Source: Leptospiraceae bacterium
GTDB lineage: Bacteria; Spirochaetota; Leptospiria; Leptospirales; Leptospiraceae
Assembly (NCBI GenBank): GCA_015075105.1
Contig: JABTUZ010000001.1
Span: forward strand, 372,001-436,000
Length of the DNA: 64,000 bases
Direction of reading: 5' to 3'
A model generated the notes under the pieces. It ran no database searches. It saw only the letters and a list, made by a program, of their open reading frames with translations, and was not told the DNA's origin. This document shows, one piece after another, positions 21,086-31,355 of the stretch. A program made the translations under genes and the position numbers. The first letter of the stretch is position 1, and each line of letters begins with the position of its first letter.

Positions 21086-22639
21086 ATGATTTTTTTTGTA
21101 ATTATTGCGGTTGCTGTTATTTTACTTTTTGCTGCATTTTTTTTATTTTTTGAGTCTAAAAAAGATATTACAGAAAAGGCATTGGCTCTTGCTGCCATCG
21201 GGAATTTTCTTGATGCGAGAGCAATGGTAAGAGATCATTTAGAAAGTTCACCCGGAAGCGTAAAATCTTTGTATGTAATGGCGAAGATTTATTCTATGGA
21301 AGGGGATTATTTGAGTGAGGCAAGTTATTTAGAAAAAATTAAGAAAATCGGACGATACGAAAAAGAATTTCCTGAGATCACGATATGCAATAGAATTGCG
21401 GATATTTATTATAATCTCGATATGTTCGAAGAGGCTTTTTTTTATTATTTGGATAGCCTGCAAGCAGATCCGACAGATCCAGAAGCGTTGATTCGATTGG
21501 GATTTATGGCATTAGGTCAAAAAGATTTTCAGATAGCGGATGTATTTTTAAAAAAATTAAATTCTTCTTCAACTCAAATTCCTTCTTACTTTATTGCCAA
21601 AGGAATAATCAAAGCCAATCAAGGTAGGGAGGGAGTTTTTCAGGATTTTGAAAGAGCATACCAGTTGGATCGGACTTCTACTGTATCAGGTTTTTTGTTT
21701 GCAGTGAGTGCTGCAAAGGAAGGAAAAAATGACACAGCAATCGAGGTCGCAAACAAGGTTGTAGAAAATATTGAAGATGAGTTTATTCGCTATACCTTGT
21801 TTCAATTTATTATGACTCAATTTTTTCTGAAAGAAGATTATTCTTCGGCAGCAAAACATGCAAGACTTTGTGTAGAAATAGCAAAGCTCAATGGTTGGAA
21901 ACACGAGACTACTGATTCTAACTTTTATTTAGCTATGTCTTTAATTGCACAAAATAAAATGGATGAGGCTTCCGATCCTTTAATAGATGCAGAGTCTGAT
22001 AGAATGGACGATACGGAAATTATAGAGCTTGCAAATTATAAATACAAAGTAGAAAATGGAGATATTAATCTTTGGGAATTTGGGACAGACGGTTACGATT
22101 TAAAAAAGGAAATTCAAGGAGCTTTCGATAAAAATTTTTCAAACGAAAGATACTACGAACTTTCCGGCTTGAGGTCACAAGATACTTTTAATATTCGAGG
22201 TATCGTAAACGAAGAAGGAAAAAAAATCACAAATCAGATAGGTTTAATCGGTGTAGATAAACTAACCAGATTCAATTCGTTAAAAGGTACTGCGTTTAAA
22301 AATACTTGCGTAAGAATTATTATGGCTTTAAATTATAGGGTGAGCCGAGAGATTCCGTATTTAGAAAATGATGGTGCAAACTATATTGGGTCAAATATTT
22401 CTGATCGAGATTTGAAGGCTCTATTTAGAATCAGAAAATGGAGAAATGTAAAAATATCAGACGTTTTTTTAAGAGACCTTTTAAGTGCAGTAAATGATCT
22501 AAGCGTCGAGAAAGGATTTATCATTGGTTCTGCAGAATTAACTCCGGGTGCAAAAAAAGTATTTTCTTCAAACCCCGATCAAATAGTCATCGTGAATGGG
22601 AAGGAATTGGACGATATTCTTGAAAAAGCTCTACGTTAG
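21086..22639 (+). CDS. Membrane-anchored TPR protein with Mrr-like C-terminal domain
   Basis: A 517-residue protein. Residues 1-22 form one membrane helix, residues about 30-310 form TPR-like helical repeats (NRIADIYYNLDMFEEAFFYYLDSLQADP). Residues about 395-517 resemble the Mrr restriction-endonuclease fold: GTAFKNTCVRIIMALNYRV, then ENDGANYI, RIRKW, FIIGSAELTPGAKKVF and IVIVNGKELDDIL. The Mrr catalytic QxK reads RIRK and the preceding Asp is in DGANYI, so catalysis may be lost. The role is unknown. It is divergent from the ABC genes and its end overlaps the next gene. Confidence 0.6.
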   Translation: MIFFVIIAVAVILLFAAFFLFFESKKDITEKALALAAIGNFLDARAMVRDHLESSPGSVKSLYVMAKIYSMEGDYLSEASYLEKIKKIGRYEKEFPEITICNRIADIYYNLDMFEEAFFYYLDSLQADPTDPEALIRLGFMALGQKDFQIADVFLKKLNSSSTQIPSYFIAKGIIKANQGREGVFQDFERAYQLDRTSTVSGFLFAVSAAKEGKNDTAIEVANKVVENIEDEFIRYTLFQFIMTQFFLKEDYSSAAKHARLCVEIAKLNGWKHETTDSNFYLAMSLIAQNKMDEASDPLIDAESDRMDDTEIIELANYKYKVENGDINLWEFGTDGYDLKKEIQGAFDKNFSNERYYELSGLRSQDTFNIRGIVNEEGKKITNQIGLIGVDKLTRFNSLKGTAFKNTCVRIIMALNYRVSREIPYLENDGANYIGSNISDRDLKALFRIRKWRNVKISDVFLRDLLSAVNDLSVEKGFIIGSAELTPGAKKVFSSNPDQIVIVNGKELDDILEKALR

Positions 22640-24558: not shown

Positions 24559-25977
24559 TTGAAAGATATGAACGTTCAATTTAAAGCACTCGATTATACT
24601 AAAGATGATGACTTTGAAGAAGCCGAGTATGAGTTTCATGGCGACAAAGATACCGGTTGGGAAATTAAAAGAAATGGTAAACTCTATTTGCAACTCGGCA
24701 AAGGCTATGAAGTTTTAAAAACAAAATATTGTGGTGTATGCTCTACAGATTTAGATAGAAGATTTTTACCTTTCCCGCTTCCTCAAGTAACGGGACACGA
24801 GGTAGTAACTGAAAGTTTAGACGGTAAAGAAAAATTTGTAGTAGAGATAAACGATACAGGTATAGCAAGAGGAGACTTAGACTTAGATAGTTTTTGTATT
24901 GCAGGAATTCCGACTCATAGTCCTACAAGAATGGTTTTAGGAATAGACAGACTCCCCGGTGGGTTTGGAAAATATATACTCGCTCCAAAAAATGCGATCG
25001 TCCCCTTTTCTAAAATTTCTTCTGAAGAGGCAGTTTTAATCGAGCCGTTTGCAGCGGCTCTTCAAGCAGTTACTTCTTCTCCTCCAAGGAGTGGGGATAG
25101 TGTAGCTGTGCTTGGTCCAAGAAGGCTTGGTGGGCTTTTGCTATTAGCACTACAGGCTTATAGAAAAAGCTCTAAAATTGATTTTTCTATTTCTGCAATA
25201 GTCAGGCACGATCACTTAGTTGACTTAGCCAAAAATCTTGGTGCAGACGAAATTGTAGATTTAAGAAAAATTCATCCGGAAGTTATTAGAGAAAAATTTG
25301 ATATAGTCTATGACACTACAAGCACTCCTTCCGGCTTTGAGTTTGCAATTCAATTAGCAAAAAGAGAAGTCCATCTGAAATCAACAAACGGTCAGGAAGT
25401 TCTGGGCTTAAAAAAACTAACAGAGATGGTGGTAGATGAAATATCTATATTGCCATACTCAATAGAAAATTTAAAGTTCAAGTGGGAGAATGAGAAAAAG
25501 GAAAACTCTAAAATCTATATTTCTCCAAACGTAAAAATAGACTCGTTACCTCAAGGCTATACAGAATATAGACTTTCTTTTGAAGAGGCGGTTAAAGTTT
25601 TGCATTCTCCCGAATTTTCTGGAAGGCTTCCCAGATTTGACTTGGCGATTGCATCGAATACCGATGAAATTGATAAAATTTTAAGACCGAGTAAAGAAGA
25701 CGAAAATTCTATTTTAAGACCGAGGGGAGCGATTCTTTTTCAAGGAGAGCCAAAAGACAATTCATTGCTAAAATTTCTCTCTTATGGAAAAAGTTTACGA
25801 TCTTCCAGATGCGGTGACTTTCACCTTTCCGTGAAACTATTGGAAGAAAACCCGGATATAGCAAAAAAACTTTCAAAAACCATGATCACCCATAAATTTT
25901 CTCCACGTGAATTAAAAAAGGCTTTTCTTGTGGCAAGAGACCCTTCCTCCGTAAAAGTTGTAATTCGACATGATTAA
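24559..25977 (+). CDS. Medium-chain zinc-type dehydrogenase, unusual
   Basis: A 472-residue protein of the MDR alcohol-dehydrogenase superfamily. Visible are KTKYCGVCSTDLD with the catalytic zinc Cys, TGHEVV, EPFAAALQAV and a Rossmann segment VAVLGPRRLGGLLLLALQAY, then ADEIVDLRKI. The four-cysteine structural-zinc lobe is missing. About 100 residues beyond the usual length are added in the C-terminal half (from about 300 on). A TTG at 24559 or ATG at 24568 is the start. The last eight bases overlap the SAHH-like gene, so the two proteins are made together. Confidence 0.75.
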   Translation: MKDMNVQFKALDYTKDDDFEEAEYEFHGDKDTGWEIKRNGKLYLQLGKGYEVLKTKYCGVCSTDLDRRFLPFPLPQVTGHEVVTESLDGKEKFVVEINDTGIARGDLDLDSFCIAGIPTHSPTRMVLGIDRLPGGFGKYILAPKNAIVPFSKISSEEAVLIEPFAAALQAVTSSPPRSGDSVAVLGPRRLGGLLLLALQAYRKSSKIDFSISAIVRHDHLVDLAKNLGADEIVDLRKIHPEVIREKFDIVYDTTSTPSGFEFAIQLAKREVHLKSTNGQEVLGLKKLTEMVVDEISILPYSIENLKFKWENEKKENSKIYISPNVKIDSLPQGYTEYRLSFEEAVKVLHSPEFSGRLPRFDLAIASNTDEIDKILRPSKEDENSILRPRGAILFQGEPKDNSLLKFLSYGKSLRSSRCGDFHLSVKLLEENPDIAKKLSKTMITHKFSPRELKKAFLVARDPSSVKVVIRHD

Positions 25978-28426
25978 TAAAGAAAACGAAGAAATCGAAA
26001 CTTCTCTTGGTCCGAGTTTAATTAGAAACGGGGAAGTTTTTGAGTTGAACCTTTCTAACTTAAGAGTTTTTACAGGGCTATCGGTTCTATCTAAGATTTT
26101 GGGTGATGAGGTTTTGAACCAAGTAGAAAATACTCCGGGAGATGTTTCTATAATTTATAAAATCAATCCAAATATAAATCCTGAACTTGTAGAGATGAAT
26201 TTTTCTTTTATTTCAATTTATGCCAGATCGGGTGTGTTAAAAGATATTTTGTCCTTTAAGGAAGAATTTCAAGACCACCTTAGAACTGTGTTTGGTACTT
26301 TTCAAAGACCGTCTTGGGGGAAAAGAATTCACCCTGAATTTTTTGGTGAAGACCCTAAGGTATCTAAATCTTTGTCTCTTATTTTTCCATTTCATCATGT
26401 AAGCGAAAATGAAAGCATAGACTATAGATTTATCTTAGAAAGAGTAGAGAACCCTCAAGTGATAGGTGACTTCTTTTTTCGACTGACCGTAGAAAATTAC
26501 GCCAAGGCAAATTTAGACATTCAAACTATTCCTCATATCATTGTAAACGATATAGGGAAAAGGGTGTTTCTTGCAGGGAGCACTAGAATTGCAGAGACGA
26601 TTAATAACGGTATTCAAGTCGCTTCTTCTAAGGGTCAGAAAAATTTTTCAGAAGAGAGAAGGGACTATAGCCACTTATTTGAGCAAATTTCCAGAACGCA
26701 ACTTGGGGATATAGAAAGAATTGATTTTTCTTGGGACAAAACTTTTTCCGATTTTTTTCAAAAGTCAAGCCCGGAGACCGGACTCCCTATATTAAAGAAA
26801 ATATTTTTAATGCTTGAGGATAATGCGTTAGGCGAAACTCTTAAAAAAGGACATACTCTAAAAGTAAATATAGGAAAGATTTTTGTAACAATGTATCTTT
26901 CGAGACTCGGCAGGGTATTGAATTGCAATTTTAATCTTTCAAAAAAAACCAAAAGTATGCTGAACTATCTGAAAAGAATGCCTGAGCTGCACTCTTTAGC
27001 AGATAAAAAAGGCCATAACCTTGATTTTGGCGGAATCAATATTTTTTTAGTTCATCATATTACATCAGAAATTTTGGCACTACTTGAAGCATTTCATAGA
27101 CTCAATTCTGGTAAAATACACGTTGCCTTTGTAAAATATGGAGGGATTGTGCCTTCGGCGTATTTAGACGTGTTATTGGATATTCCTACAGAGAATTTTT
27201 TTATGGCAGGGCTAAGTCGTCGCACCTCAGAAAAAAATAAAGACTATTATGTTTTATCTAAAGACTATAGCGATACAAGTGAGATGAAAGAGTTAAAAGA
27301 ATACTTGGAACAAGAGGAGTTGAATTTTTTCGATGCGATGAAACTTCTTTCTGGGCATTTGCTATTGAAGTTTTGTATAGAGTCCGAAAAGGAAGAAAAA
27401 AAGGTAATGCTCATAGAAGACGGAGGCTACCTCGCTCCATTTTTTAATGACTATATCAGTAGGGACTTATTCACAAAAGAAGTATTTGAAATTTATAAAG
27501 TAACACATAGTAACACTCAAGAAAAATTTTCCATTTGGATAAAAGAAATCTTAATAGGTAGTGTAGAGCACACTCGAAACGGATACGACCGGCTAAAAGA
27601 AGTCGAAACAAAACACTCAAGTTTGAATTTTCCCACTTACTCAATCGCTATCTCAGATAAAAAGGTCAAGGAAGAATCCAAAGAAGTAGCGCACTCTGTG
27701 TTGAGTGCAATTGAAGCAATATTACACGGGCAGGGAATGGTATTGTCTCAAAGGAAGATGATTGTACTTGGCTCAAGGGGAAACATTGGCCGTTTTTTAT
27801 GCAAGTATTTAAAGGGTGGAAGGATGCACGAGTCCAATCAAGATTTGGCTGAGGTGGATATTAAAAAAGAAAGTGGAGAATTTTTTTATAATACGTTAGA
27901 CGAAATACCAAGAGAAATATTTTTATCTCGAGATTTATTTATAGGTGTAATAGGGAAGTCAGTTTTAAAAGAAGAGCTTATTTCTGACTTAATATTGCAT
28001 GGCACCAAATCAAGGATTGTATTTGCATCCGGCTCGACTAAGACAGTAGAATTTTCTGAGCTTTCTGATTTTTTAAACAAACTTTCTTCTATGAAAAATC
28101 CTTCTATTCGAGAGACTCCGATAGAGATTGACTTTGATAGAATCATAGAGCCACAGTCAGGAATAGACCATGGTGGGAAGGTGCAGATTTCTTTTGAGAA
28201 AAATGGAGAAAAGATAGAAAAGGTTTTCTATCTACTGGGTGATTTGAGTCCGGTGAATTTTATATTTTACGGAGTTCCGACTGAAACAATGGATTCAATA
28301 ATTTCAGAATTACTAACTATTTCTTTAGGTTTAAGCGACCAATATAGAAATGGGAAGCGACCACATCCAAAACTATATGCGGTTGATTTTGAAATTGATC
28401 GCTGGGGGAATTTGATAGAGGGTTAA
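25970..28426 (+). CDS. 818-residue protein with S-adenosylhomocysteine-hydrolase-like C-terminal half
   Basis: Residues 1-330 match nothing I recognise. From about 360 the order of motifs follows AdoHcy hydrolase: HHITSEILALLEAF, VMLIEDGGYLAP (like the DDGG segment), GSVEHTRNGYDRL (like EETTTGVHRL), FPTYSIAISDKKVKEESKEVAHS (like the vNDSxTKxxxDNxYGxxxS segment), then a Rossmann start VLGSRGNIGRFLC (GxGxxG-like). A C-terminal beta-rich part ends PKLYAVDFEIDRWGNL, where SAHH would have its Lys-Tyr tail. It is likely an NAD-binding enzyme that departs from true SAHH in length and at the active-site Asn/Asp/Lys set. It is translationally coupled to the dehydrogenase upstream. Confidence 0.7.
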   Translation: MINKENEEIETSLGPSLIRNGEVFELNLSNLRVFTGLSVLSKILGDEVLNQVENTPGDVSIIYKINPNINPELVEMNFSFISIYARSGVLKDILSFKEEFQDHLRTVFGTFQRPSWGKRIHPEFFGEDPKVSKSLSLIFPFHHVSENESIDYRFILERVENPQVIGDFFFRLTVENYAKANLDIQTIPHIIVNDIGKRVFLAGSTRIAETINNGIQVASSKGQKNFSEERRDYSHLFEQISRTQLGDIERIDFSWDKTFSDFFQKSSPETGLPILKKIFLMLEDNALGETLKKGHTLKVNIGKIFVTMYLSRLGRVLNCNFNLSKKTKSMLNYLKRMPELHSLADKKGHNLDFGGINIFLVHHITSEILALLEAFHRLNSGKIHVAFVKYGGIVPSAYLDVLLDIPTENFFMAGLSRRTSEKNKDYYVLSKDYSDTSEMKELKEYLEQEELNFFDAMKLLSGHLLLKFCIESEKEEKKVMLIEDGGYLAPFFNDYISRDLFTKEVFEIYKVTHSNTQEKFSIWIKEILIGSVEHTRNGYDRLKEVETKHSSLNFPTYSIAISDKKVKEESKEVAHSVLSAIEAILHGQGMVLSQRKMIVLGSRGNIGRFLCKYLKGGRMHESNQDLAEVDIKKESGEFFYNTLDEIPREIFLSRDLFIGVIGKSVLKEELISDLILHGTKSRIVFASGSTKTVEFSELSDFLNKLSSMKNPSIRETPIEIDFDRIIEPQSGIDHGGKVQISFEKNGEKIEKVFYLLGDLSPVNFIFYGVPTETMDSIISELLTISLGLSDQYRNGKRPHPKLYAVDFEIDRWGNLIEG

Positions 28427-28439
28427 ATATAATCACAAA

Positions 28440-29558
28440 TCATGGGCTAATCCTAATATTTCTTTTTTTAAGGATTAACCCCACTATGAAAACAACAATC
28501 AAAAATAACACAGAATATAAAAGTGAATTGAGAGGGGTTGGAATTTCTCCAAAAATTTTTTTGTATAGAAATAGTTTTAGAGAAATTTCCTTTTTATCCA
28601 ACTGAATTGAAATGAGGTTGAGTATCCTTGCAAAAATCCCTGAAATAAAATACAAAAAAAGTGCATTCAAACTAAAAATTGAAAAAAAGGATTTAATAAA
28701 ACTTATACTTTGAATTTTTTTAATATCAAAAAAATATATAAACGTCATCAAGTATATACAGGCTATCCCTGAAGTGAAAAGAGTGTATGAGCTTGTCCAA
28801 AGGTTTTTATTTATAGGAAAAATGAAATTTAAAAGTAATCCTAGTATGATACATACAATTCCTATTGCAAAGAGTGTATAAATTTTTTTTAGAGATTTTT
28901 CACTTCTATTATTTTCAAATAGTATATATCCAGTCAAAATCCCTGAAATAGAAGTGGCAATAGAGGGAAGAGTGCTGAGTATTCCTTCCGGATCCCAAGT
29001 CTTTGTGTATTTCCAGACGTGTCCTTTTAAGAAAAGTCTGTCTATATAGGCAGCAATATTTTTTTCTGTGTCCATAGTCGGAAGACTTTCCCCCGGCGGA
29101 GGGATGCATAAAAATAGAAATGTATAAAATACGAGTATCCCAAAAAATAAAATGCCTAACCAGTTTTTGGAAAAATTTAAAAATAATATAGAAGAAAAAA
29201 AATAAACTACAGCAATCCTTTGTAAAACGCCTGGGATTCTGATTTCAGAAAAATTGTAATCTGGAAATCCGTTTAGAATTATACCTAATAAAAATAGTAT
29301 AATAGTTCTAAATAGAATTTTTTTGTAGATTTGTATGGTTGTAAGTGAAAGCTGGTATTTAGTAATTGCAAGATAAATGGAAACTCCAACTATATATAAA
29401 AAAAAAGGAAAAATCAAATCTGCAAAAGTGCAACCGTCCCATTTCGCATGACGTACTATTGGATACATTATACTCCAAGAGCCCGGGTTATTTACGATAA
29501 TCATTCCGGCGACAGTCATTCCCCGAAAAATATCCAAAGACTCTAGTCTGTTATTCAT
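28440..29558 (-). CDS. HGSNAT/DUF5009-like membrane acyltransferase
   Basis: A 372-residue protein with about ten hydrophobic helices. The N-terminal RLESLDIFRGMTVAGMIIVNNPGSW and HAKWDGCTFADLIFPFFLYIVGVSI are the hallmark of the heparan-alpha-glucosaminide N-acetyltransferase (HGSNAT)/DUF5009 family, which moves acetyl groups from acetyl-CoA across the membrane to amino sugars. The conserved His of RHAKWDG would be the acetyl carrier. In bacteria these proteins probably acetylate envelope sugars. It lies three bases downstream of the UXS gene in the same direction, consistent with envelope glycan synthesis. Confidence 0.85.
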   Translation of the reverse strand: MNNRLESLDIFRGMTVAGMIIVNNPGSWSIMYPIVRHAKWDGCTFADLIFPFFLYIVGVSIYLAITKYQLSLTTIQIYKKILFRTIILFLLGIILNGFPDYNFSEIRIPGVLQRIAVVYFFSSILFLNFSKNWLGILFFGILVFYTFLFLCIPPPGESLPTMDTEKNIAAYIDRLFLKGHVWKYTKTWDPEGILSTLPSIATSISGILTGYILFENNRSEKSLKKIYTLFAIGIVCIILGLLLNFIFPINKNLWTSSYTLFTSGIACIYLMTFIYFFDIKKIQSISFIKSFFSIFSLNALFLYFISGIFARILNLISIQLDKKEISLKLFLYKKIFGEIPTPLNSLLYSVLFLIVVFIVGLILKKRNIRISP

Positions 29559-29561
29559 GGA

Positions 29562-30497
29562 TTAGTCTAAATTTTTAGAAAAATACTCAATAGTTTTACG
29601 AACACCTTCGATTAAAGAAACTGTAGTTTTGTAATTTAGTTTTTCTTTCGCTAGGCTCAAATCGGGCTTTCTTCTAATTGGGTCGTCCTTTGGGAGTGGT
29701 TGAGAAATAATTTTTGATTTAGAGCCTGTTTCTTTTAATACAATTTCTGCTAATTCTTTTACAGTAAACTCGCCATTATTGCCAAGGTTGACAGGACCCG
29801 TAAAATTTTCCGTGTTCATCATGGTTACCATTCCATTGATTAAATCATCTACATAGCAAAATGACCTTGTCTGAGAGCCGTCTCCATAGATTGTAATGTC
29901 ACTCCCTTTTAAAGCTTGAACTATAAAATTACTCACTACTCTGCCATCGTTCGGGTGCATCCTTGGGCCGTAAGTATTGAAGATTCGGATGACTCGTATG
30001 TCAACTTTATGGGATCTATGGTAATCAAAGAAAAGTGTTTCGGATACTCTTTTCCCTTCGTCGTAGCAACTTCTAATTCCAATAGTATTTACATTTCCCC
30101 AATAGGATTCTTTTTGAGGGTGCTCTTTCGGATCTCCGTAAATTTCGCTTGTGGATGCTTGTAAAATTCTTGCTCCGACTCTTTTTGCAAGACCGAGCAT
30201 GTTTAGTGAGCCGAGTACATTTGTTTTTATGGTTTTAATTGGGTTGGATTGGTAGTGGATAGGAGATGCAGGGCAAGCTAAATTATAAATCTCGTCTATT
30301 TCGAGGCGAATTTCTTCAGTAATATCGTGTCGTATGAATTCAAAATTTTTATAATCGTTTAGATGATAGATATTTTTTTTTCTACCTGTGTGCAAGTTAT
30401 CCAAGCACAATATTTCGTTATTTTCTTTTAAAAGTTTTTCACAAAGATGAGAGCCTAAAAACCCGGCTCCACCTGTTACTAAAATTCTCTTACCCAT
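29562..30497 (-). CDS. UDP-glucuronate decarboxylase (UDP-xylose synthase)
   Basis: A 311-residue short-chain dehydrogenase-type enzyme with [14 protein letters not shown] at the N-terminus, the [21 protein letters not shown] stretch and the active-site Tyr-x3-Lys in SCYDEGKR, and [29 protein letters not shown]. The YWGNVNxIGxRxCYDEGKR sequence is diagnostic for UXS, which makes UDP-xylose from UDP-glucuronate with bound NAD. UDP-xylose or a derivative would supply envelope polysaccharide synthesis. It is followed by the HGSNAT-like gene and preceded by the M50-type peptidase gene on the same strand. Confidence 0.9.
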
Positions 30498-30503
30498 GAA
30501 TAA

Positions 30504-31355
30504 TTATCCTTCGTTTTTAAATTCTGAAATCAATTCTTGGGGTAGAGGTTTCCCGTTCAAGTCTAATCCTCTGGAAATAAACCATTCAGCAATTTCTGGA
30601 GTGACCTCTCCCGGAAACCTATCTACAGGTAGCTCCGGTAAAATCTCGCTTGTGTCTTCTCGGAAAGTCTTTTTTAAAGTCAGATACAATATGCAAATAC
30701 TAATCACTGACCAAATAGTTGCAATAAAATAACTGAGTAAAATTACAGAGCTTGGCGGTTTTCCTTTTGACGTTGGGATTTTTAGTAGCCAATAAGCAAA
30801 AATCCCTGCATCTGTAGAATGGATGTTTCCGGTAAAGTCTAATAAATCATAAACGCTGTACATGGAAATTAGCGTACCGAGAGAAACAAGTATCATCGCA
30901 GATGCAGACCTATTGATTACACCGATTACTAAAAATATTGCTCCCCATACAATCCCAGTGCTATAGGCGAGATTCCCTGACTTAGAAAATTGAAATGTTG
31001 CAAATAGAAGTAATATTCCGAGAATGCTTAGAGTTTGTTTTTCGTATTTTCCGGAAAACCCCCTGTAGAGTATCAATCCTCCCAAGACAGATGAGCCAAT
31101 ATAACCGGCAGAAACTACAAATACAAATGCAGCTTTTAGTTTCCCCGGATTTGCGATGGTTTCTCCAGACTCGTTATTGTGAATAGACACTCTCTCAACA
31201 ACTCCACCTGTTAAAACTGTGGCAATTGCATGACAGATTTCGTGAAATAAAACTACTAAATCTTTTAAGTATCCCATAAAACTATGCTCCCACAGAGTAA
31301 CAAAAAAAAGTAAAAATGAAATAAAAAACATAGTCTTTAAAGTTTTATGGCTCAT
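30504..31355 (-). CDS. M50B-type membrane metallopeptidase
   Basis: A 283-residue protein with six or seven hydrophobic helices. The zinc motif HExxH is at residues 38-42 (FHEICHAIATVLTGG), followed by VERVSIH, as in the M50B peptidases that sit in the membrane. The third zinc ligand is not obvious by eye. Family members cleave within membrane segments, but substrates of this branch are unknown. The soluble C-terminal tail is acidic. It lies six bases upstream of the UXS gene, so it may be in the same operon. Confidence 0.78.
   Translation of the reverse strand: MSHKTLKTMFFISFLLFFVTLWEHSFMGYLKDLVVLFHEICHAIATVLTGGVVERVSIHNNESGETIANPGKLKAAFVFVVSAGYIGSSVLGGLILYRGFSGKYEKQTLSILGILLLFATFQFSKSGNLAYSTGIVWGAIFLVIGVINRSASAMILVSLGTLISMYSVYDLLDFTGNIHSTDAGIFAYWLLKIPTSKGKPPSSVILLSYFIATIWSVISICILYLTLKKTFREDTSEILPELPVDRFPGEVTPEIAEWFISRGLDLNGKPLPQELISEFKNEG

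Follow-up and report, generated by a model that had tools for sequence, protein, structure and literature searches.

A two-domain S-adenosylhomocysteine hydrolase-like protein and its zinc-type dehydrogenase partner in Leptospiraceae and other bacteria

This report concerns two overlapping genes in a 64,000-nucleotide stretch of the genome of a Leptospiraceae bacterium (GenBank assembly GCA_015075105.1, contig JABTUZ010000001.1, positions 372,001 to 436,000 of the forward strand), which is referred to as the window throughout. The downstream gene encodes an 818-residue protein whose C-terminal half resembles S-adenosylhomocysteine hydrolase (SAHH), and the upstream gene encodes a zinc-type medium-chain dehydrogenase (MDR). 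The interpretation that we favour, with about even confidence, makes the 818-residue protein an SAHH-type enzyme that depends on NAD and has as its substrate an adenosine derivative distinct from S-adenosylhomocysteine (SAH); the zinc MDR would work in the same pathway. The fold of the protein, the conservation of its residues, its distribution, its linkage to the MDR gene and its distinctness from the true SAHH are supported by predictions and alignments. The two genes are:

24568..25977, plus strand: zinc-type MDR partner (open reading frame 24559-25977, 472 residues, with the likelier start at 24568); open reading frame, library matches and homologue-aligned start
25970..28426, plus strand: SAHH-like protein of 818 residues; open reading frame, homologues and an AlphaFold model (AF2) with a predicted local distance difference test (pLDDT) of 90.7

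Both open reading frames were found as an earlier, sequence-only reading of this DNA had described them: they lie on the same strand, and the start of the 818-residue gene runs into the MDR stop with an overlap of eight bases (25970-25977). The MDR probably starts at the ATG at 24568 (M4) and not at the TTG at 24559, because its homologues begin at that residue. Full-length homologues occur in other Leptospirales, at 35-55% identity for the 818-residue protein and 40-60% for the MDR, and both open reading frames are therefore regarded as real coding sequences. Every examined member of the host family encodes full-length homologues of both, as do some members of a sister family within Leptospirales. 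The 818-residue protein divides into two parts:

25970..26965, plus strand: N-terminal domain, residues 1-332; AF2 model, to which no structure of the PDB or of the viral library BFVD matched at E <= 0.001
26966..28423, plus strand: SAHH-fold domain, residues 333-818, with substrate and NAD-binding lobes; PDB fold matches and hhalign

The predicted SAHH fold of the C-terminal half (substrate lobe, NAD lobe and return to the substrate lobe) is well supported, because the top PDB matches of the AlphaFold model are SAHHs and a profile alignment is collinear with this family. The model of the whole protein has a mean pLDDT of 90.7 and a predicted template-modelling score (pTM) of 0.83, and its top 50 PDB fold matches are all SAHH crystal structures (best E 4.6e-15, template-modelling (TM) score up to 0.68 on the target). 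When profiles of 42 homologues and of 12 true SAHHs were compared by hhalign, the match was collinear through both the substrate lobe and the NAD lobe (E 3e-5, probability 73%). For the single 818-residue sequence, the NCBIfam SAHH signal was weak (E 2.7e-4), the SAHH family score of 18-20 bits lay below the curated cut-offs of 275 and 497.6, a Pfam search gave no SAHH match, a PDB sequence search returned chance matches only and a profile search returned generic Rossmann matches only. The SAHH motif order recognised by the sequence-only reading was borne out by the NCBIfam signal, the profile-profile match and the fold matches, and the SAHH fold on which that reading depended is present in the model.

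Modelled alone, residues 1-332 form a compact domain (pLDDT 92.3, pTM 0.87), which contains a conserved R-x(3)-FGTxQRPxW motif at about residues 105-116. The claim that the first 330 residues match nothing held in searches of Pfam and PDB sequences and in comparisons of the model with PDB and viral (BFVD) folds, where no match was obtained at E <= 0.001 and the best matches had TM scores of about 0.1-0.2. Because the model matches no PDB or viral structure at this threshold, the domain is a candidate new fold as judged against these two collections. An apparent N-terminal fusion in one related locus (L088, 1270 residues) was rejected as a spurious GC-rich reading frame.

Active-site columns were taken from a joint alignment of 42 homologues (set A3) with the host's own SAHH and are given in human SAHH numbering; the host SAHH in the same alignment yields identical columns. 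The corresponding features of the 818-residue protein are:

27056..27070, plus strand: HxTxE motif H363-I-T365-S-E367, equivalent to SAHH H55, T57 and E59 (general base and adenine recognition); alignment, PMC4647836, PMC10978960
27416..27430, plus strand: EDGGY, residues 483-487, in which D484 corresponds to SAHH D131, the C4' proton donor; invariant in 42/42
27566..27583, plus strand: EHTRNG, residues 533-538, with T535 (T157) kept and H534 in place of the 2'-OH ligand E156; alignment
27653..27676, plus strand: S562, K565 and E569, corresponding to SAHH S183, K186 and D190 (Asp to Glu); invariant in 42/42
27770..27790, plus strand: Rossmann loop GSRGNIG of the NAD-binding lobe, residues 601-607, with the second strand closed by D630; alignment and model
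28028..28045, plus strand: SGSTKT, residues 687-692, where SAHH has the homocysteine gate GHF (H301); invariant in 15/15 of an unbiased set and in 42/42 of A3

In SAHH, H55 activates water as a base, D131 gives a proton to C4', K186 and T157 act on O3', T57 and E59 contact adenine N1 and N6, and E156 and D190 bind the 2'-OH, while H301 at the 5' side gates the homocysteine channel and the GHF motif is completely conserved among SAHHs of various species (PMC4647836). HxTxE is the motif of adenosine-type SAHHs, and HxExK that of the inosine type (PMC10978960). Among the 42 homologues, H363, D484, T535, K565 and N763 (H55, D131, T157, K186 and N346) are invariant, the D190 position is always Glu, HxTxE is retained in 39 and the E156 position is His in 38. 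These columns contradict the earlier claim that the usual active-site residues are not preserved, as the equivalents of H55, D131, T157 and K186 never vary, D190 is conservatively replaced by Glu and HxTxE is kept. The equivalence of SGSTKT to the GHF gate is what we infer from its position after strand 682-687 of the model. The C-terminal tail with K426 and Y430, which in SAHH reaches the NAD of the neighbouring subunit, is missing, as the 818-residue protein ends earlier; active archaeal SAHHs also lack this tail, and its absence is therefore no argument against activity (PMC10978960). Judged by the aligned residues, the protein retains the chemistry set and the adenine set of SAHH, with alterations of the 2'-OH ligand, the homocysteine gate and the C-terminal NAD clamp.

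The host genome encodes a separate, true SAHH on another contig (658 bits against a cut-off of 497.6), and this cut-off is also passed by a protein in 38 of 48 class genomes. The 818-residue protein is not the SAHH of the cell. With SAHH (AHCY; TIGR00936, PF05221) it shares the two-lobe fold, the motif order, equivalents of H55, T57, E59, D131, T157, K186 and N346, the NAD-binding loop and the helix that follows the return to the substrate lobe, but it differs in the 330-residue extra N-terminal domain, in the replacement of E156 by His, of D190 by Glu and of GHF by SGSTKT, and in the lack of the K426/Y430 tail. The archaeal S-inosylhomocysteine hydrolase has a similarly short C-terminus without these two residues (PMC10978960), whereas the 818-residue protein has HxTxE of the adenine type, the extra domain and the altered gate. 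Since the SAHH half fails the family cut-off and deviates at E156 and at the gate, it was not classed as an SAHH, although it probably works like one.

In the mechanism that we propose, the C-terminal half would bind an adenine nucleoside, bound NAD+ would oxidise the nucleoside 3'-OH with the help of K565 and T535, D484 would take the C4' proton, H363 would expel or add the 5' substituent, and the 3'-keto group would be reduced again, closing the SAHH cycle. Given H534 in place of E156 and SGSTKT in place of GHF, homocysteine is improbable as the 5' substituent, and something other than a plain hydroxyl may be present on the 2' side. The N-terminal domain would probably bind the remainder of the substrate or the partner, and the substrate of the MDR would be a precursor or product within the same pathway. 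What the enzyme catalyses and in which direction, the class of its substrate, the function of its N-terminal domain and the pathway itself are our inferences, and a two-enzyme pathway made by the pair is plausible.

The partner resembles known zinc-dependent MDRs at some distance. ADH_N and ADH_zinc_N of Pfam matched at E ~1e-4, below their gathering scores, the TDH-like and MDR models of NCBIfam at E ~1e-10, far under all equivalog cut-offs, and phmmer comparison with alcohol dehydrogenases of the PDB gave E 6e-10. The GroES-like and Rossmann lobes are present, and the catalytic-zinc ligands (Cys61, His80-Glu81 and the Glu162 region) are invariant across 25 MDR sequences. These lobes and the catalytic-zinc Cys and His-Glu are shared with threonine 3-dehydrogenase, scyllo-inosose 3-dehydrogenase IolM and RspB-type proteins, but the host MDR differs from them in having an insertion followed by an invariant SRCG-x-F and in lacking the four-Cys structural-zinc lobe, which is optional in the MDR family:

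25447..25791, plus strand: insertion of ~115 residues, MDR residues ~297-411, just before the invariant SRCG-x-F; alignment A6

The MDRs of Leptospirales and Planctomycetota carry this insertion and have no structural-zinc cysteines, whereas the partners in Desulfobacterota and some other phyla are short and possess them. The missing lobe and about 100 extra residues had been noticed in the sequence-only reading; in the alignment the lobe is indeed missing, and the insertion amounts to ~115 residues relative to the shorter partners.

A first scan of genome contigs with one sequence as query found no related locus, and related loci were recovered with an alignment as query. Among 296 genomes drawn from the phylum, 17 encode the 818-residue protein; ten further reported matches were short, weak Rossmann matches. 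The N-terminal domain is part of the encoded protein in 43 related loci; upstream sequence is nearly lacking in three of them, so that linkage could be tested in 40. The MDR gene lies within the same-strand cluster in 25 of these and on the opposite strand within about 2.5 kilobases in two more. Linked loci occur in Leptospiraceae and another spirochaete, in Planctomycetota, in Desulfobacterota including Syntrophales, in Bipolaricaulota and in others. A lack of linkage in every other genome would have refuted the sequence-only reading, and the two genes are linked in many. The trees of the SAHH-like proteins and of the MDRs group the same lineages (distance correlation 0.68, a value reached by none of 2000 permutations). 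No match for the pair was found in defence and phage libraries, no curated family in the searched libraries covers these SAHH-like proteins, and a literature search on such SAHH-like/dehydrogenase pairs yielded nothing relevant.

The genes of Desulfobacterota and of some other phyla usually follow the order MinD-like ATPase, fusion of an ECF-S domain with HAMP, MDR and SAHH-like protein, and the ATPase and the ECF-S/HAMP membrane protein are members of the cassette in Desulfobacterota. The loci L087:1051-3922, L113:3480-6249 and similar ones contain the conserved MinD-like ATPase and a riboflavin-type ECF-S/HAMP fusion upstream of the pair; the fusion has a conserved C-terminal tail and looks like a membrane sensor. 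Genes of the family of 5'-methylthioadenosine (MTA)/SAH/5'-deoxyadenosine deaminases flank the cassette in three Syntrophales/Deltaproteobacteria loci, which offers thin evidence that would fit adenosine metabolism.

Several points weigh against the proposed enzyme and its pathway. The MDR gene is not beside the SAHH-like gene in 13 of the 40 testable loci, and in the sister Leptospirales family both genes are usually present but unlinked. The agreement of the trees is partly due to shared species history, and deaminase genes adjoin the cassette in few loci and lie on the strand opposite to it. The wider homologue set was recruited with patterns that included HHIT[SG]EI and SGSTKT, and the conservation of these two motifs is biased in that set; both are nevertheless invariant or nearly so in 15 sequences gathered without patterns. 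In addition, a different chemistry could be indicated by the His that stands where SAHH has E156 and by the missing H301 gate.

Vertebrate AHCYL proteins keep the SAHH fold and nucleoside and NAD binding and perform no net chemistry. The 818-residue protein might similarly be a sensor or regulator that signals to a receptor in the membrane and to a MinD-like ATPase, an explanation that we consider unlikely. It would account for the MinD-like ATPase and the ECF-S/HAMP fusion in the Desulfobacterota cassette and, as far as these can be read from sequence, for the genes encoding STAS, SpoIIE-phosphatase and histidine-kinase-like ATPase proteins beside the SAHH-like gene in some loci. However, the chemistry residues are invariant across phyla, which is unusual for a dead enzyme, and the receptor/ATPase pair is absent from Leptospiraceae and Planctomycetota loci, where the dehydrogenase remains.

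Equally unlikely is SAHH-type chemistry on a non-nucleoside, for example the oxidation of a sugar or cyclitol hydroxyl, with the MDR (similar to scyllo-inosose, threonine or sorbitol dehydrogenases) acting on the same molecule. The MDR does resemble sugar, cyclitol and threonine dehydrogenases, and two Planctomycetota-type loci have an inositol-phosphate-synthase-like gene (L096:5096-6406, immediately preceding the MDR and SAHH-like genes) and an IMPase-family gene a short way before the pair; each of these inositol genes was, however, found in one locus of the searched set, and the adenine-binding Thr/Glu pair is kept in 39 of the 42 homologues.

That the protein is a second, divergent SAHH, which hydrolyses SAH or S-inosylhomocysteine under special conditions, is rather improbable. 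The SAHH fold, the chemistry residues and the HxTxE motif found in bacterial SAHHs would all agree with this, as would the archaeal precedent for activity without K426 and Y430 (PMC10978960), but the host and almost every member of the class encode a true SAHH, and the 818-residue protein has a replaced GHF gate (H301; PMC4647836), His for E156 and a second domain of 330 residues. Finally, the MDR might have an independent task, for example in threonine or glycine metabolism, and lie next to the SAHH-like gene without a functional tie. This possibility draws on the sister family, whose MDR gene closes a glycine-cleavage operon at a distance from the SAHH-like gene. It is very improbable, as the two genes are neighbours in several phyla and with different MDR subtypes, the trees are congruent and both genes are mostly still present where they are unlinked in Leptospirales.

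Joint presence in this sister family has exceptions: two genomes, one of them incomplete, have the MDR without the SAHH-like gene, and the reverse holds for one incomplete genome. In two loci (L062:2244-8369 and L063:2139-8271), the glycine-cleavage genes are followed by a conserved 93-residue protein lacking an assigned function. A tie of the MDR to glycine cleavage through this neighbour was rejected: the 93-residue gene is found in 43 of 48 class genomes with or without the MDR, and it therefore does not connect the MDR to the function of the operon.

Relatives of the SAHH half without the N-terminal domain, here termed type II, were found in Marinifilum, Ruminococcus, a Lachnospiraceae bacterium and one deltaproteobacterium:

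L112:5211-9656, L114:511-3000, L115:1100-3706 and L116:4696-7362: type-II SAHH-like loci without the N-terminal domain and with the HxDxK base motif

Several of the relatives carry HxDxK and not HxTxE and stand next to, or form one protein with, a small domain that shows weak similarity to PF14196 (ATC hydrolase). In the type-II relatives of Marinifilum, Ruminococcus and Lachnospiraceae, this motif resembles HxExK of S-inosylhomocysteine hydrolase, and by analogy the HxDxK relatives may recognise a 6-oxo base. Marinifilum has two tandem SAHH-like paralogues, one with HxDxK and one with HxTxE.

Downstream of the pair, the window contains three genes on the minus strand (28440-31355), which code for a NagX-like acyltransferase (28440-29558), an NAD-sugar epimerase/dehydratase resembling UDP-glucuronate decarboxylase (29562-30497) and an M50B peptidase (30504-31355). 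The epimerase/dehydratase and the peptidase are likewise neighbours of the SAHH-like gene in the sister family of Leptospirales (L057, L058, L059 and L061), with reversed orientation, and this neighbourhood is old shared synteny. Upstream, 21086-22639 encodes a single protein in which an Mrr-type restriction endonuclease domain comes after TPR repeats.

To our knowledge, SAHH is regarded as a single-purpose enzyme. If the favoured interpretation is true, SAHH chemistry would have been recruited for another adenosine compound by a widespread paralogue with an altered gate, an extra domain and a travelling dehydrogenase. In a fuller and distinctly tentative version, the pair would constitute an undescribed nucleoside pathway: an SAHH-superfamily enzyme of two domains, the N-terminal one with a new fold, would cleave or form a 5'-substituted adenosine distinct from SAH, and the product would pass to a zinc dehydrogenase dedicated to it. 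In Desulfobacterota this pathway would be linked to the membrane ECF-S/HAMP protein and the MinD-like ATPase, and a sister type without the N-terminal domain would act on a 6-oxo base (HxDxK). The conserved residues and the partner make the question of the substrate directly testable.

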